Source: an uncultured Candidatus Saccharibacteria bacterium
GTDB taxonomy: Bacteria > Patescibacteriota > Saccharimonadia > Saccharimonadales > Saccharimonadaceae
Direction of reading: 5' to 3'
DNA: 39,399 nt
Assembly: GCA_947302765.1 (NCBI GenBank)
Contig: CAMYWN010000003.1
Coordinates: 1 to 39,399, forward strand
The notes beneath the pieces were generated by a model, which saw only the letters and a list, made by a program, of their open reading frames with translations, was not told where the DNA came from and did no database searches. The position numbers were made by a program, and so were the translations under genes. Within the stretch, counting starts at the first letter, position 1; every line of letters starts with the position of its first letter. Shown here one piece after another: positions 2,789-32,507 of this stretch.

Positions 2789-2864
2789 GGCCTGGTAGCT
2801 CAATGGATAGAGCAGCTCCGTCCTAAGGAGAAGGTTGTGCGTTCGACTCGCACCCGGGTCACCA
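2789..2864 (+). tRNA. tRNA-Arg (anticodon CCT)
   Basis: The cloverleaf folds by eye. Acceptor GGCCTGG pairs with CCGGGTC (two G-U pairs), D-stem GCTC/GAGC, anticodon loop GTCCTAA with anticodon CCT at 2822-2824, T-stem GTGCG/CGCAC with loop TTCGACT. Discriminator A is followed by an encoded CCA. The top pair of the anticodon stem (27-43) is a G-A mismatch. It reads AGG codons. Its 3' 21 nt (from C56 to A76) recur at 2995-3015. Confidence 0.93.
2844..2864 (+). repeat. 21-bp direct repeat, copy 1 (tRNA-Arg 3' end)
   Basis: Starts at C56 in the T-loop and ends with the CCA tail. It is identical to 2995-3015, 151 bp downstream, like the duplicated core of a tRNA attachment site. Confidence 0.95.
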
Positions 2865-2866
2865 AA

Positions 2867-2966
2867 TTCGAGTTAAAAGCCGGCATCTCGGCGTTTTTTT
2901 GCTCGCTCGATCATAAATCGCACTTCGCAAGAATAAAACACCGATCTGTCGGCTTTTATTCTCAAA
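2867..2966 (+). other. Type-I structured hairpin element after tRNA-Arg
   Basis: Imperfect inverted repeat of about 36-40 bp per arm (2867-2902 with 2927-2966), with an inner stem CGAT/ATCG (2908-2911 with 2917-2920). The inner stem is flanked by unpaired TCGCT and CACTTCG. The left arm contains GCCGGCATCTCGGC followed by seven T, so it can also end the tRNA transcript. The same loop motif and layout recur at 32257-32364. Confidence 0.75.
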
Positions 2967-2994
2967 TGAGAAATCATAACCGAATCTAGCGATG

Positions 2995-3015
2995 CGACTC
3001 GCACCCGGGTCACCA
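2995..3015 (+). repeat. 21-bp direct repeat, copy 2 of the tRNA-Arg 3' end
   Basis: Perfect copy of tRNA-Arg positions 56-76 including CCA, with no tRNA body in front of it. It ends 7 bp before the -35 of the next gene. Confidence 0.95.
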
Positions 3016-3912: not shown

Positions 3913-4033
3913 TGCTAGCCAGAATAGTGCTTTTCGGAGACGGGGTTCCTCGCGCCCGCCGTCGCGGGGCTCGGACCCCTCATACCTCGGTCGTAACCTC
4001 CGGAAGCTCCTCAAAGCACTATTCTTGGCCAGC
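3913..4033 (+). other. Type-II structured element, copy A
   Basis: Outer arms near 3913-3939 and 3998-4033 pair (AGAATAGTGCTTT with AAAGCACTATTCT). Inside, GGGGT/ACCCC closes a GC-rich hairpin, and a small GGT-CGTA-ACC stem follows. The layout suggests a branched structure. Homologous to copy B, which follows directly. Confidence 0.7.
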
Positions 4034-4052: not shown

Positions 4053-4058
4053 ACCTTT

Positions 4059-4181
4059 ATCTAACCAGAATAGCACCTTTCGGGCACGGAGTCTCGCCAG
4101 CCCGTCTTCACGGGTGGCGAGCTCCTTCGTTCTCGCTAGCAAGCTCCGAAAGATCCCTCAATGTGCTATTTTGGTTAGATA
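4059..4181 (+). other. Type-II structured element, copy B
   Basis: The outer stem begins ATCTAACC and ends GGTTAGAT. Inside it, AATAGCAC pairs with GTGCTATT where copy A has AATAGTGC with GCACTATT, so two base pairs have changed on both sides. A near-perfect inner hairpin (CTCGCCA...TGGCGAG around CTTC) and a small GCT-AGCA-AGC stem match copy A in position but not in sequence. Confidence 0.72.
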
Positions 4182-9800: not shown

Positions 9801-11850
9801 TACCTTGTCTCCTTCTTTGTTCTTTACTAAGCTCAGAGGCGTCCAGGATGAAGTAATTAAAACTCTCTTCTTTTTTGGGATTCTTCGCATTGATATATGC
9901 TGTTAGAAGGTTGCCCGACACATCATCAAGGCCCATCTTATTTCTGATATCTTCGTCTTGTTTTATAAGAAAGGCTATGTCGCCGGCGTCAAATGATGTC
10001 TGCCAGAATTCTGGTTTAGGGCCGCTGACATCAAAATACTTGGAAATGATTTCTCGTCTCTCCTCTTGGGTGCGTGTCTCTTTAACTATCCCGGAGCTCG
10101 ACACGACGTCATACGTCTGTAAAAAACCGTTCGTCGCATCGTCAAAGCCTGTCTCCTCTTTATCTTGAGTTGCCAGAAAATTGTAATCTCCTTCCCGTAG
10201 TGCATATTGATAAAATTCAGGTTTGAGGTTGCCGGATTCGTCGAAAAACTGCCAATACCGTAATTGGACATTGTTATAAAAGCTCGTACTCATAGCTTCG
10301 CTACCTTGGTTTATGAAGGCTAACGCCTTATTTTGCATCTTTTCAAACAAAGAGATTCTCTTTTTTTCATGCTCGCTAAGAATAGAATGTGGTGGACTAG
10401 TGGAAGGATTTCGAGCTACACGGTGATACCAATAATTGTTCGGTTCTCCTTGATTATCAAAGAAATCAGAATATTCTTGACCTTTATATAGTTCTAAACG
10501 ATCTTTCTCCGTAAAGTCATTCTTAGAGGCTTTTCTAATGGTGTCATTTTTAGAAATAGATTCGGGATAATTGTCGAATGATTCGCGTCGTCTCATGTCT
10601 TCTAAAATATCACGATTGGACGCGAGTATTAAGAACGGAGCGGGTGGGCGCTCGGAATGCATGGTTTTGTTTTTCATTTGATGTTCTATCTCCCCCATAA
10701 TCGTTTCCTGGATGGCTGTTTGCTTTAGCGCCTCTTGGAATTCATGGCTCTGAGCCCAGGATTCGACTTCTGCCACTGCAACCCTATAATCGTCCTCCAT
10801 GTGGATTCTGGAAAAAAGGCGCATGACCGATTCATCGGAAAAGTTTAGTTTTTCCAGCTGTTTTTGGAAGTTACCCCGGAGTAGTACTTCAAGTTTGTTC
10901 TCCCCCGACTCTACTAAGGCTTGGCTCCAATACTTTATGTCGGGGCTGTTGCCTTCTGGCACAATATGTGCTTTTGAGGCGATATCCATAATACTAAAAC
11001 CGGATTCTCCGGCGGACTGAGGGTTGTTAAGCATGTCCCCAATTATTCTTTCGTATTCTTGTCCGTCAAATAAGTTATTTTGGATGAGAAACTCCGTTCC
11101 GGCAGATATTGTAGCTACTGACTTTTCGTCATGATACTGGCCCCAACGTTGATCTTTCAACAAGCATACCCCTGACTGTTTGAGAACCTTAAGATCGGAG
11201 ATCTTCTTCCTATCATACGGCTCATTACTAATAATTGCGTGTATTTCTGAATCTAGGTCGTATATATATCTTTTATTATTAATGAAGTTCTTCTGGAATT
11301 TTTCTGCACCCTCTTTAGTCTGGGACATTGTTTGATAAATTTCAGAAAGCTTGCCGTCACCTATACGTTCAGGAGATCCCACCATGCCAGAATAAAAGTC
11401 TTCGTTCTCAAGCACTATCGACACGGGCATGTCGTATTTTTTAATGAATCTCCACGCATTCCCGTAGTACGTTCCACGGAGACCGCCTATATTATAACTA
11501 GGTTGGGAAGCTTTGCACAGCTCTTCGGCAAATTTGCGGGACCATAAGCCTTCACTCTTTTTCTTAAATTCTTCTACTATTCGTTGCTGTTGTTCTGATA
11601 ATTCTGATTCATAGCCGAGAATAGTGGGTTCACTTACTAGGGCATCTTTGTTATTAGTAAAGAACTCTAAAGCCTCTTTGCGACGAGCGTTTAGAACTGG
11701 CTGCTGCAATTGCTCGATTGTCTTATCCTTTACCAATCCAGCAAGAGTGATTGCCTTATTCCCGAACTGACCGGCGAGAGCCGCAACAGAGCTCCATGGA
11801 CTGTTGTCTGATTGGCTTTTACTATTAACTTCTTCACCTCCATTTGCCAT
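6859..11850 (-). CDS. Giant uncharacterised protein, 1663 aa, with repeated PEFWQ motifs
   Basis: I do not recognise this family. No signal peptide or membrane helix is evident, so it may be cytoplasmic or exported by an unusual route. In the middle four degenerate repeats centred on residues about 541, 610, 723 and 797 share the pattern K-P-E-F-W/Y-Q ... GD..LLakQDe ... GfDdat..F. Near residue 1480 a Cys cluster (RACLSCKTKG, then NNDTNLTLGDGN and a further Cys) could bind metal or be an active site. The last 100 residues include IEFGGENARASG and IEIIINSPQTI strands. The ATG at 11850 is 6 bp after TATAAT with no Shine-Dalgarno. It is transcribed divergently from the Xer recombinase gene. Confidence 0.85.
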   Translation of the reverse strand: MANGGEEVNSKSQSDNSPWSSVAALAGQFGNKAITLAGLVKDKTIEQLQQPVLNARRKEALEFFTNNKDALVSEPTILGYESELSEQQQRIVEEFKKKSEGLWSRKFAEELCKASQPSYNIGGLRGTYYGNAWRFIKKYDMPVSIVLENEDFYSGMVGSPERIGDGKLSEIYQTMSQTKEGAEKFQKNFINNKRYIYDLDSEIHAIISNEPYDRKKISDLKVLKQSGVCLLKDQRWGQYHDEKSVATISAGTEFLIQNNLFDGQEYERIIGDMLNNPQSAGESGFSIMDIASKAHIVPEGNSPDIKYWSQALVESGENKLEVLLRGNFQKQLEKLNFSDESVMRLFSRIHMEDDYRVAVAEVESWAQSHEFQEALKQTAIQETIMGEIEHQMKNKTMHSERPPAPFLILASNRDILEDMRRRESFDNYPESISKNDTIRKASKNDFTEKDRLELYKGQEYSDFFDNQGEPNNYWYHRVARNPSTSPPHSILSEHEKKRISLFEKMQNKALAFINQGSEAMSTSFYNNVQLRYWQFFDESGNLKPEFYQYALREGDYNFLATQDKEETGFDDATNGFLQTYDVVSSSGIVKETRTQEERREIISKYFDVSGPKPEFWQTSFDAGDIAFLIKQDEDIRNKMGLDDVSGNLLTAYINAKNPKKEESFNYFILDASELSKEQRRRQGISEASDALLDSILNLAEESTAPWFDRSNNIVSLFDKASGLPKPEFWQLCLEAGDFLLLAKQDRLFRANVIGFDETINTFLDQYKKIEGSIILEKAKTDDRVREAIDRYFTPNGPKPEFWQDSFAVKNFSLLARQDEETRKSMGFDEATMAFINGAAGKVFAGEKRTIDESNVIQALTRFINKDADDWSDSSEDDLLIKEAFDGNDVKDLSLAKLRSLYGEYLKNGNSMQFPNVLTAMADYMHSKGGAGPLTQIEAFLDYAGALGNSMQEAKKDDDWRNELITNVATIEGMMQKYRWDNQEKSNFYATSAEIINASPELFREFTQLFVNNLSKEEFKAFTGEIYPLYRAKLALLREYEDHSNGIGEGYTTIKYNPSDIDNLKNQLHTALLPFNCKEVSMEKRRKGIERVKENIFSEISELFKTKFSIRPEAIPSELSKADARVVGDMTLYLGNLAQPNQQKKDILGFYLALQLDRDQTAWKKLRSGEDVSPSNYLDIVSSFGVEQAVEQSRRNNPITLESTRIDNPERLIEFRRALQNETVSMRFGNIQTVDLRLQNLRGNMEELIDPDLYPEGIDRQRVELLRELPSQKEFNKIIGTIQQRMMGKDIPLTDEGQLIMGRVEQILKDNDLEVNTNNIKQYFQTDMKTIQVPFRILESIDSYGVVDSIKELQRMLNPPDNVVQILEKLGEAPKPQSGVMALGEDLDFLENLMVKKANELTENETNTLGEYLGSIRKKLTELDSIYGKVVENYNTMKKNGVHPSTLNQIKEIDKIISNEANQSVITTTCTNEMTTIIENMRACLSCKTKGINNDTNLTLGDGNIFYMCSSESASRGSSVADEIVYFVPSEDENGANKRLSFVMDRIYGMKNSDIMMAHIETILKKAHELKSGFPKVPISVILPDSSINSCSASVDAMELSRRIGSGDGFEDIRDKTVTVPESGFGDHYIEFGGENARASGPRKVSGIEIIINSPQTIATVPSQ

Positions 11851-11856
11851 AAGCTT

Positions 11857-11880
11857 ATTATACTACAAATTTGTTATAAT
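11857..11880. promoter_or_regulatory. Overlapping divergent promoters around a perfect palindrome
   Basis: TATAAT boxes at 11857-11862 (minus) and 11875-11880 (plus) face outward, each 6 bp from an ATG. Between them is the perfect palindrome ACAAATTTGT (11865-11874). With so little space each promoter's -35 region overlaps the other's -10, so the two genes may be expressed alternately or share a regulator. Confidence 0.6.
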
Positions 11881-11886
11881 ATAGAT

Positions 11887-12825
11887 ATGGACATCTACGA
11901 GCTGATTAATGATTTTTTGGAGCATCTTGAAGTTGAGGCGGGACGGAGCAAGAAGACGGTTGAGAATTATCGGCTGTATCTAGAGAGGTTCGTAGAAATC
12001 GCGCTAGACGTAAGTGGCAAGAATGAGATTCGGCCACAAGACATCACAAAGGAACTACTTAGAAAGTATCGCATTAAGCTAAACCGCTACGGGTCTGAGA
12101 ACGGTAATGATGACTTGAAGACCATCACGCAGGCGTATCATCTGATTGCGCTGAGAGGTTTCCTAAAATATCTAGCGCGACGCGATATTAAATCACTGGA
12201 TCCTTCCCTAGTGGATTTGCCACACGTAATTCGCAAACAGGTAACATTCTTACACTACGACGAGGTGGAGGATATGCTCGAACAAATAGATACATCCACT
12301 GAATCAGGGCTACGAGATAGGGCGATTATTGAGCTTCTGTACTCTGGAGGCTTACGCGTATCAGAGTTAGTGGGGCTGAACCGCGATTCGATTAACCTGG
12401 AAAGACGTGAATTTATGGTGCGCGGGAAAGGCTCTAAGGATAGGCCGATATTTATCTCGCAGTCGGCGGCGGACAGAGTGCGAGATTATTTGGATGCGCG
12501 GACCGATTCCCTGCCGGCTTTGTTTCTTAATAACTCAAGAAACCTGCAGACGGCTGACACTTCGGGTAATTATCGGCGGATGACGACGCGCTCGGTAGAA
12601 CGAATTGTAGAGAAATATGCCAGGCTGGCCGGTATCACAAAACATGTCTCCCCGCATACATTAAGGCATTCATTTGCGACGGATTTACTGATGAACGGAG
12701 CGGATATCAGAGCGGTACAGTCGATGCTGGGGCATGCAGATATTTCGACAACGCAAATTTACACACACGTAACAGATGTACATCTCAAGGAAATACACGA
12801 TAAATTTCATTCAGAGACTAAATAG
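11887..12825 (+). CDS. xerC: Tyrosine recombinase XerC/XerD family
   Basis: 312 aa, typical Xer length. An N-terminal SAM-like core-binding domain (about 1-105) precedes the catalytic domain. All active-site residues are visible: Arg157 in GGLRVSE, Lys184 in KGSKDR, His257 and Arg260 in HTLRHS, His283 in LGHADI, and nucleophile Tyr292 in IYTHV. It probably resolves chromosome dimers at a dif site together with FtsK, which is also in this window. The ATG at 11887 is 6 bp after TATAAT without a Shine-Dalgarno. Integron-integrase inserts are absent. Whether it acts as a single Xer or has a partner cannot be told here. Confidence 0.92.
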   Translation: MDIYELINDFLEHLEVEAGRSKKTVENYRLYLERFVEIALDVSGKNEIRPQDITKELLRKYRIKLNRYGSENGNDDLKTITQAYHLIALRGFLKYLARRDIKSLDPSLVDLPHVIRKQVTFLHYDEVEDMLEQIDTSTESGLRDRAIIELLYSGGLRVSELVGLNRDSINLERREFMVRGKGSKDRPIFISQSAADRVRDYLDARTDSLPALFLNNSRNLQTADTSGNYRRMTTRSVERIVEKYARLAGITKHVSPHTLRHSFATDLLMNGADIRAVQSMLGHADISTTQIYTHVTDVHLKEIHDKFHSETK

Positions 12826-30888: not shown

Positions 30889-30894
30889 ATTATA
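30889..30894 (-). promoter_or_regulatory. -10 box of ftsK
   Basis: TATAAT on the minus strand, 6 bp before the ftsK ATG and overlapping the stop codon of the upstream HD-domain gene; ftsK may therefore be transcribed both by read-through and from this box. Confidence 0.55.
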
Positions 30895-31945
30895 GCACAC
30901 TTTCTTGGGGCCGTAGATTTTGGTCGACTCCTTCAAGATAAACATAATCATTCATAGCGTAGGCGAGGTTTTTTGCGATGTAGGAGTTAGCGATTTTGCA
31001 AATTTTAGATATACGCTGGCCGTTTACTAAAGGGTCGATATGACGGACCTTAAGTGACTGGCGTACGGAGTAGGTGTTGGCTGGTTGCTCTTTAGATGTT
31101 TTGAGATTACTGGCAGCCCTCCATCGGTCAAAAATTGGTTGGTATTTAGAGTCTTCTATTTTTTGAATAATTGCTGACTCGGGCAGGGTGTAGAGGTCTT
31201 CTATGGTGAGCTGGTCATCTTCTCGTAAACTTTTTAGGATGTCAGCAATGAGGCGCATAGAATAAACTGGACGCTCGTCGCGGTAAATAACCGACATTTC
31301 ACTAGTAGCTTTGACGAACTTTCTGGCGAGGCGTTTAGTCTTAAAGCCTAGTTCCGGAAGGTTGTCCTCGTTAGTTTGAATCTCGATATCTTGATAGATT
31401 TCTGAAACTTCATCGGGGGTAAGTTTGTCGTAGAGAAATAAGGCATTTGAAAGTGAGTACTCGAGACGGTCGCTAGCGAGACGAGGAGAATCATTGTCGG
31501 CGATTGGGTAGAGGTGATAATCACAGACTTCTTCCAGATTAATATGGTCGCGGGCTAAAAGAGACATGATTTCTGGTGAGTTTTTGATAAAGGCCGGAGT
31601 GAGCTTTTCAAGAGACTCTTGTCTAGCACCATCATCATTCATCACGTCTACGCAATGCTTAAAAGCCGGCGTCGCTATATCATGGAAGAGTCCTGAGAGG
31701 GTTTGTTTTTTGTCATGGGTAAAATGCCAGATAACGAGAGCTACGCCGACAGAATGGTCGAGATTAGAATAAAAGAAATTGGATGGGTCCAGATTTGTAT
31801 ATACCATACCACAATTATTACTAATTGATGCCGAACGGAGCATAGCGGGGGTCTCAATGTAATCATTTAGCCATTTGGGTGGATAGGGTTCGAGAATAGT
31901 AAAGTATTGCTTGATACTGGTAGGAATATTATCAAGATAAGCCAT
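30890..31945 (-). CDS. HD-domain phosphohydrolase-like protein
   Basis: 351 aa. An HD metal-binding core is visible: His in LDHSVGVALVIWHF, the adjacent pair in LSGLFHDIATPAFKH, and a later Asp in NDSPRLASDRLEYS. The family hydrolyses phosphate esters, often of nucleotides; the layout recalls dGTPase-like and metal-dependent HD proteins rather than the RelA type. Substrate unknown. The promoter is near-ideal (TTGGCA, 17 bp, TATAAT), with 8 bp to the ATG. The stop overlaps the ftsK -10 box, so both may form one unit, but a functional link is not shown. Confidence 0.8.
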   Translation of the reverse strand: MAYLDNIPTSIKQYFTILEPYPPKWLNDYIETPAMLRSASISNNCGMVYTNLDPSNFFYSNLDHSVGVALVIWHFTHDKKQTLSGLFHDIATPAFKHCVDVMNDDGARQESLEKLTPAFIKNSPEIMSLLARDHINLEEVCDYHLYPIADNDSPRLASDRLEYSLSNALFLYDKLTPDEVSEIYQDIEIQTNEDNLPELGFKTKRLARKFVKATSEMSVIYRDERPVYSMRLIADILKSLREDDQLTIEDLYTLPESAIIQKIEDSKYQPIFDRWRAASNLKTSKEQPANTYSVRQSLKVRHIDPLVNGQRISKICKIANSYIAKNLAYAMNDYVYLEGVDQNLRPQESVL

Positions 31946-32105: not shown

Positions 32106-32180
32106 TGGACCGTCGCCAAGCGGTAAGGCACTGGGTTTTGGTCCCAGCATTCGCAGGTTCGAATCCTGCCGGTCCAGCCA
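32106..32180 (+). tRNA. tRNA-Gln (anticodon TTG)
   Basis: Acceptor TGGACCG pairs with CGGTCCA, discriminator G, encoded CCA. Anticodon stem CTGGG/CCCAG holds the loop TTTTGGT with anticodon TTG. T-arm GCAGG-TTCGAAT-CCTGC is standard. The U1-A72 pair is typical of glutamine tRNAs. It reads CAA and, by wobble, CAG. Its 3' end is repeated twice more downstream. Confidence 0.95.
32160..32180 (+). repeat. tRNA-Gln 3'-end repeat, copy 1
   Basis: C56 to A76 of the tRNA: identical over 21 bp to 32487-32507, and over its last 18 bp to 32242-32259. Confidence 0.95.
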
Positions 32181-32221
32181 AGATGAAAAAATAGCGAGCT
32201 TGCTCGGTATTTTTTTATCTT
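32180..32221. terminator. Bidirectional terminator-like hairpin after tRNA-Gln
   Basis: Two 20-nt arms pair at 18 positions around TT, with A-rich left and T-rich right arms, GCGAGC/GCTCG at the tip. It can end the tRNA transcript. Confidence 0.8.
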
Positions 32222-32241
32222 GCGACCGGTCTTGGATGAAT

Positions 32242-32259
32242 ATCCTGCCGGTCCAGCCA
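32242..32259 (+). repeat. tRNA-Gln 3'-end repeat, copy 2
   Basis: ATCCTGCCGGTCCAGCCA, an 18-bp copy of the tRNA end without a tRNA body. Its last bases form the base of the next hairpin. Confidence 0.93.
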
Positions 32260-32364
32260 GACTAGCTAAAAGCCCCTAATAAGGGCATTTTTCTTGCCTC
32301 GCTCGTCATTAGACGCACTTCGGCAAGAGAAAATACCCTTCTAGGGGCTTTTAGTTTAGTCTGG
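32257..32364 (+). other. Type-I structured hairpin element after tRNA-Gln
   Basis: Arms 32257-32298 and 32322-32364 pair over about 42 bp with few mismatches (CCAGACTA ... TAGTCTGG at the base). The loop TCGCT, inner stem CGTC/GACG, then CACTTCG has the same unpaired bases as the element after tRNA-Arg, while both stems differ in sequence and stay paired. Confidence 0.8.
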
Positions 32365-32416
32365 TTAGCGATTGGCAGGATGAAAACCGTAGGTTCGGAC
32401 GTCGTAGGAGGTGAGT

Positions 32417-32446
32417 AAAAATCCCAAATCTTGTTTGGGATTTTTT
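32417..32446. terminator. Terminator-like hairpin in the third repeat interval
   Basis: AAAAATCCCAAA pairs with TTTGGGATTTTT around a short loop. It is followed by a GC-rich stretch (about 32450-32486) with no recognised content, then repeat copy 3. Confidence 0.7.
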
Positions 32447-32486
32447 GAACCGACGCCCGGCGTAGTGGGCGAGCGCAGCGAGGCCA

Positions 32487-32507
32487 CGAATCCTGCCGGT
32501 CCAGCCA
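32487..32507 (+). repeat. tRNA-Gln 3'-end repeat, copy 3
   Basis: Perfect 21-bp copy of tRNA positions 56-76, 327 bp from the tRNA's own end. Confidence 0.95.

Follow-up and report, generated by a model that had tools for sequence, protein, structure and literature searches.

Repeated tRNA 3' ends behind a Saccharibacterial tRNA-Gln gene: a probable array of RtT-like trailer cassettes

The stretch of DNA described here, called the window, comprises 39,399 nucleotides (nt) of contig CAMYWN010000003.1 (assembly GCA_947302765.1) from an uncultured Candidatus Saccharibacteria bacterium. Its tRNA-Gln gene (anticodon TTG; UUG in the RNA), located by ARAGORN at 32106-32180 on the plus strand, is followed on the same strand by two further copies of its own 3' end. 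The last 21 nt of the gene (32160-32180) constitute copy 1. Copy 2 (32242-32259) is exact over 18 nt, and has three mismatches in the 21-nt register (32239-32259). Copy 3 (32487-32507) is exact over all 21 nt and provides the 3' strand of a closing stem, P1, together with the acceptor strand and the CCA. The start-to-start distances are 79 and 248 nt. An earlier note on this DNA had described three copies with a different hairpin in each interval. The positions are borne out, and shuffled windows give no chance match to the tRNA-Gln 3' end. Both intervals also fold strongly compared with shuffles (z = -5.8 for the 79-nt and -8.4 for the 248-nt interval). They contain more than differing hairpins, however: copy 2 is paired in a minihelix resembling the acceptor and T-arm, and copy 3 closes a conserved RNA with several helices.

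Immediately 3' of the tRNA lies H0 (32181-32220), an AT-rich hairpin with a GC head. By eye this fold is terminator-like; a strict terminator scan of the plus strand did not call it. At most loci a single H0-like hairpin occupies the approximately 35-45 nt that separate the tRNA from the cassette. The folded minihelix follows at 32221-32259, with copy 2 as its 3' strand. In genome G007 (locus L043) the corresponding copy, its complementary arm and the acceptor stem of the tRNA have changed in concert. A long hairpin, called type I, is predicted by folding at 32260-32361 (arms 32266-32298 and 32322-32354); similar hairpins also adjoin tRNA-Arg(CCT) and tRNA-Met, and another follows the tRNA-Tyr cassette. 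The remainder, 32364-32507, is a structured cassette called type A, recognized by its covariance model, its structure and its covariation. It is built of an antisense T-arm, a P2 hairpin, helices P3-P5 and P6, and is closed by copy 3. The antisense T-arm (GGCAGGATGAAAACC, 32374-32388) is complementary to the T-arm of tRNA-Gln and forms the 5' strand of both P1 and P2. The 3' strand of P2 is a sense copy of the T-arm 5' half (GTAGGTTCG, 32389-32397), as T-arm comparison and covariation indicate. The P5 hairpin (32417-32445), an inverted repeat likewise supported by covariation, has a perfect 12-base pair (bp) stem. The DNA behind the tRNA-Gln gene is probably a short tRNA-trailer array with two cassettes, the second of which belongs to a family, similar to the RtT repeats of Escherichia coli, that stands behind many tRNA genes and constitutes a structured RNA element with a tRNA-specific antisense T-arm.

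The type-A cassette is approximately 145 nt long, or 170-192 nt at most loci when H0 is included. Ten cassettes, taken from behind Lys, Val, Arg, Glu, Leu, Ala, Tyr and Gln tRNAs, were aligned over 154 columns. Two-sided changes are found in 31 of the 39 pairs, and 93% of the cells are paired. The covariation score is 0.594, compared to 0.222 for shuffled alignments, and was reached in none of 500 shuffles. The covariance model of the cassette, R1, gives the tRNA-Gln cassette, one of the ten sequences from which it was built, 120 bits (E 1.7e-29). It has 20 matches in the source genome at E <= 0.01 when the genus is searched, and 26 at E <= 0.1 when that genome is searched singly. Matches are present in 51 of 60 genomes of the genus, in other genera of the family and in a few other Patescibacteriota. 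The core (GTAGGAGCCGAG...GAGGCGACGCC, P3-P5) retains its sequence and pairing in the majority of the genus genomes and also in some outside the genus. In distant Patescibacteriota, Gly, Ser, Arg and Gln loci show the same layout; at one of these loci the tRNA has no encoded CCA, and neither has its copy. At L065-L068 in the source genome the P3-P5 part of the core occurs alone, with no upstream tRNA detected.

This conservation bears on the possibility that the cassettes are a by-product of mutation. Template switching at the T-arm during replication could produce the inverted copies and slippage the direct ones, while further switching would keep the stems paired, so that no function would be needed. 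There is precedent for template switching as a source of RNA stems and as a means of their repair (PMC8794818), and the simple modules do consist of little beyond the antisense and sense tRNA 3' end. A neutral process is, however, unlikely to preserve easily both the sequence and the pairing of a core across most of a genus and some genomes beyond, which makes this origin quite improbable.

In the source genome (G000; 919 kb in 110 contigs, 87% complete) the flanks of the tRNA genes were searched for a copy of the last 18 nt of the tRNA with at most two mismatches within 1.5 kb. Such a copy lies downstream of 15 of the 37 distinct tRNAs and upstream of none, whereas control pairings with unrelated tRNAs gave a downstream 3'-end match in only 4 of 1298 cases. 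The idea of one mechanism acting at several tRNAs is thus supported. A tRNA-Asp gene (L008, G000:C77) is followed by three identical tandem 82-nt units near the end of its contig, and further tRNA genes of the assembly are located at contig ends. The tRNA-tail repeats probably break the assembly, so that the true numbers may be higher than those counted. A second cassette family, type B, stands behind tRNA-Ser and tRNA-Gln(CTG) (L018, L034 and L013); the 3' arm of its terminal hairpin is the tRNA 3' end.

The cassettes are matched to the tRNAs that they follow. Among 107 full-length copies, a tRNA gene lies within 500 nt upstream in 100 and within 60 nt in 87, and 24 isoacceptors are represented. 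The terminal copy is identical to its own tRNA at a mean of 15.8 of 18 positions, compared to 9.6 of 18 for other tRNAs. The antisense T-arm inside the cassette behaves similarly (14.2 of 21 positions for its own tRNA and 11.0 for others, a difference that none of 2000 permutations reached), and the cassettes also contain the T-arm 5' half in the sense orientation. No tRNA-specific effect is seen in two controls, one with the antisense of the anticodon arm and one with that of the acceptor 5' strand. Specificity for the tRNA extends to the 5' strand of the closing stem. Where the copy has drifted, this strand pairs better with the copy than with the tRNA at L094, L251, L257, L268 and L305, which suggests that pairing within the cassette is at least part of what is kept. 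The drifted loci are mixed in this respect, as at L081, L297 and L306 the strand still suits the tRNA better. The antisense T-arm pairs with a sense T-arm that is present in two pieces: the 5' half lies close by, and the 3' half, with the acceptor strand, at the end of the cassette. Together with the covariation, this shows the repeated tRNA 3' end to be one strand of a tRNA-specific stem. A tRNA-primed retroelement was considered and rejected because the antisense spans the T-arm and not the CCA end, unlike a primer-binding site. The guide-like complementarity also brings to mind the bridge RNA of IS110-type elements, an RNA that guides target and donor for a DEDD transposase.

This design resembles that of the RtT repeats (rttR; Rfam RF00391), which have been regarded as a peculiarity of the tyrT operon of E. 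coli and have long been unexplained. The tyrT transcript is the precursor from which the RtT RNA is freed. The RtT units, described as 178-bp repeats at tyrT and tyrV, follow a tRNA gene in tandem, are 168-178 nt long and each end in the 3' end of that tRNA. In E. coli K-12, three 178-bp units lie downstream of tyrV and each ends in the tRNA-Tyr 3' end. The left arm of the unit, GGGGAAGGAT, is the antisense of the T-stem and is followed by GAGAA...GGTTCG. At proK the unit has the antisense T-arm and the copy of tRNA-Pro instead. Unit number is variable: within E. coli, whole 168-bp units have been gained and lost at proK, where the last unit is truncated. In strain A10, the tyrT region has two tRNA-Tyr genes, the one followed by two units and the other by six, which makes eight. 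The Saccharibacterial cassette is, similarly, a unit of approximately 170-180 nt 3' of a tRNA, ends in the tRNA 3' end, and has both a left arm that is complementary to its copy of the T-stem and the GAGAAcc...GGTTCG hairpin. A variable number of units and a truncated last unit are further common features. R1 also matches E. coli and Klebsiella RtT units (tyrT and proK), the best with 21 bits and E 1.7e-4 in 14 kb. The two differ in that the P3-P6 core of type A does not align with RtT, and in that RtT of E. coli was seen here only behind tRNA-Tyr and tRNA-Pro, whereas the Saccharibacterial cassettes stand behind 24 isoacceptors, in arrays mixed with other types of modules. A search for RtT and tyrT function in the literature collection used here yielded nothing except a report that the RtT small RNA is among those upregulated at low temperature in Thioalkalivibrio (PMC8092127).

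The comparison of tRNA-Gln loci between relatives covered 174 genomes. The arrangement is not invariant: the number of 3'-end copies ranges from 0 to 4 across 30 species, with several types of modules. Flanks that are orthologous on both sides enclose no module in G054 and one in G109, and none in G075 and two in G056. Together with the tandem units, these differences in module number and type at orthologous loci support the repeated accretion of cassettes that the earlier note had put forward. The nearest relative of a cassette core stands behind the same isoacceptor in 51 of 97 cases (5 expected) and in the same genome in 4 (3.6 expected). Hopping between the tRNAs of one genome is therefore rejected, as same-genome nearest cores are at the chance level. 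Judging by these relationships, the cassettes are inherited or transferred tRNA by tRNA.

The other mechanism proposed earlier, insertion at the T-loop by a tyrosine recombinase, has to be weighed against these data. In that case the cassettes would be site-specific mobile mini-elements, inserted at the T-arm by a phage-type or housekeeping Xer enzyme, with the element restoring the tRNA 3' end and leaving a direct repeat. Integrative elements of the T-loop class do leave a direct repeat of the tRNA 3' end next to an intact tRNA gene. Such repeats are present here, and the insert lies between the tRNA and a second, ordinary-looking terminator. Two gene-containing modules are bracketed by the repeat, and one cassette is 98% alike in unrelated flanks. 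Orthologous sites without modules exist as well, although loss of an array predicts them too. The cassettes differ from integrative elements in being 60-250 nt long and almost never coding, in having neither an integrase nor a fixed core, and in their internal antisense T-arm. The source genome, which has the most cassettes, has a single PF00589 protein, an Xer-like tyrosine recombinase encoded by the open reading frame (ORF) at 11812-12825 (plus strand). The remaining families of the order have this protein as well. No tyrosine recombinase was found in the incomplete genome G006 (79% complete), which has six cassettes, and no dedicated integrase belonging to or linked with the cassettes was found. 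Phage and plasmid collections contain no cassette match; four pattern matches in IMG/VR have neither a tRNA nor R1 hits.

The limits of the repeat also fail to suggest a fixed crossover. The window has a second tRNA arranged likewise, tRNA-Arg (anticodon CCT; ARAGORN, 2789-2864, plus strand), whose 3'-end repeat pair lies at 2844-2864 and 2995-3015. Repeat search and folding place a type-I hairpin and the 21-nt copy in the module 3' of it (2865-3015, plus strand). The repeat at tRNA-Arg thus exists as described earlier, but its 21-nt limits, C56 to A76, are not general: exact identity begins at C56 or 1-3 nt later and extends over 18 to 21 nt genome-wide, mostly 18-19. Common limits as the mark of a fixed crossover are rejected on this ground. 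Finally, the antisense T-arm and the covariation are not expected of the footprint of an attachment site, and cassettes do not hop between the tRNAs of a genome. Recombinase insertion is consequently unsupported and mobile elements of this kind appear unlikely.

Two modules between tRNA-Gln copies are coding, one of 459 nt in G010 (L240, G010:C16) and one of 837 nt in G116 (L229, G116:C2). Each contains promoter-like sequence and an ORF, of 101 amino acids in the first and 125 in the second, and neither ORF matches a Pfam or PHROG family. These modules raise the question of gene-cassette arrays anchored at tRNAs and comparable to integrons, in which the 3'-end hairpins would be recombination sites that gather cassettes, some with genes. 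Integron attC cassettes are likewise short modules in arrays, each with a terminal imperfect hairpin. Here, however, the hairpin varies with the tRNA, the modules are mostly non-coding with just the two exceptions, and no dedicated integrase was found, nor does an IntI-type integrase adjoin the array. An integron-like system is thus highly improbable.

Comparison of individual genomes gives some indication of how the arrays change. G006 and G026 share a block of 265 bp that extends exactly from the tRNA to the last copy and is 97% identical, while the flanks are unrelated. Two compensated acceptor changes (2+2) in the tRNA are repeated in the copy, and the one further change is in the cassette. 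In the tRNA-Val region of G010, the left half differs from that of the source genome. Near identity begins in the right half and extends through the copy and over more than 1 kb downstream, and as a result the copy no longer fits its tRNA. From the sequences this is recombination within the cassette. The acceptor strand of the tRNA-Gln copy is unlike the local tRNA at L238 (G109) and L186 (G061), and that of G109 matches the tRNA-Gln allele of other species. The patterns are consistent with exchange at tRNA loci combined with turnover of the arrays. Saccharibacteria are naturally competent (PMC10633639).

By combining these observations, a tentative course of events can be described. A cassette would be read from the promoter of its tRNA once transcription passes H0. 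It would then act as an RNA, most likely on the maturation or stability of the transcript of its own tRNA, by analogy with RtT of E. coli tyrT. Arrays might grow and shrink when the 3'-end repeats recombine unequally or slip, and the same process would help to keep the copy and the tRNA alike. Spread between species would occur mainly by homologous exchange at tRNA genes, and both arms of a cassette for a new tRNA could be written by template switching in the course of replication (PMC8794818).

Several points weigh against this description of an RtT-like family and its history. The RF00391 model reaches its gathering cut-off (45 bits) on Saccharibacterial cassettes in 0 of 40 genomes, and an Rfam scan of the cassettes gave only tRNA above threshold; the cassettes are called RtT-like instead of RtT for this reason. 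In view of this and of the modest R1 score, the two might have converged. Modules other than type A have in common only the hairpin that ends in the tRNA 3' end. Transcription and processing of the cassettes in these bacteria, and their action as RNA, are predictions made by analogy. Unequal crossing-over does not account for the step in which a cassette first gains the T-arm of a new tRNA. Homologous exchange alone is likewise insufficient for G006 and G026, as both the tRNA and the copy have the local acceptor.

With these reservations, the RtT design is now seen to accompany 24 kinds of tRNA in Saccharibacteria, and other classes of Patescibacteriota have it at a few loci. Parts of the cassette vary with the T-arm of the tRNA, which is invisible when a single tRNA is considered. 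Each cassette thus predicts the tRNA on which it acts or from which it was copied, and an old puzzle becomes testable. The tRNA 3'-end repeats found here are probably not the footprints of integrases, which calls for caution in searches for mobile elements that rely on such repeats. Doubtful, yet conceivable, is a general bacterial system in which an RtT-like trailer RNA with an antisense T-arm controls the maturation or supply of its own tRNA, and in which the arrays act as points where species exchange cassettes, sometimes with genes.

Two other features of the window may be mentioned. Two similar long imperfect hairpins lie between adjacent ORFs at 3921-4025 and 4058-4181; their arms are 89% and 85% complementary around 67-70 nt. 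The protein encoded at 30890-31945 on the minus strand has its closest relatives, at 55-62% identity, mostly in gut metagenome-assembled genomes labelled Clostridia or Bacilli, as well as in Saccharibacteria; these labels would reflect either mislabelled bins or horizontal transfer.
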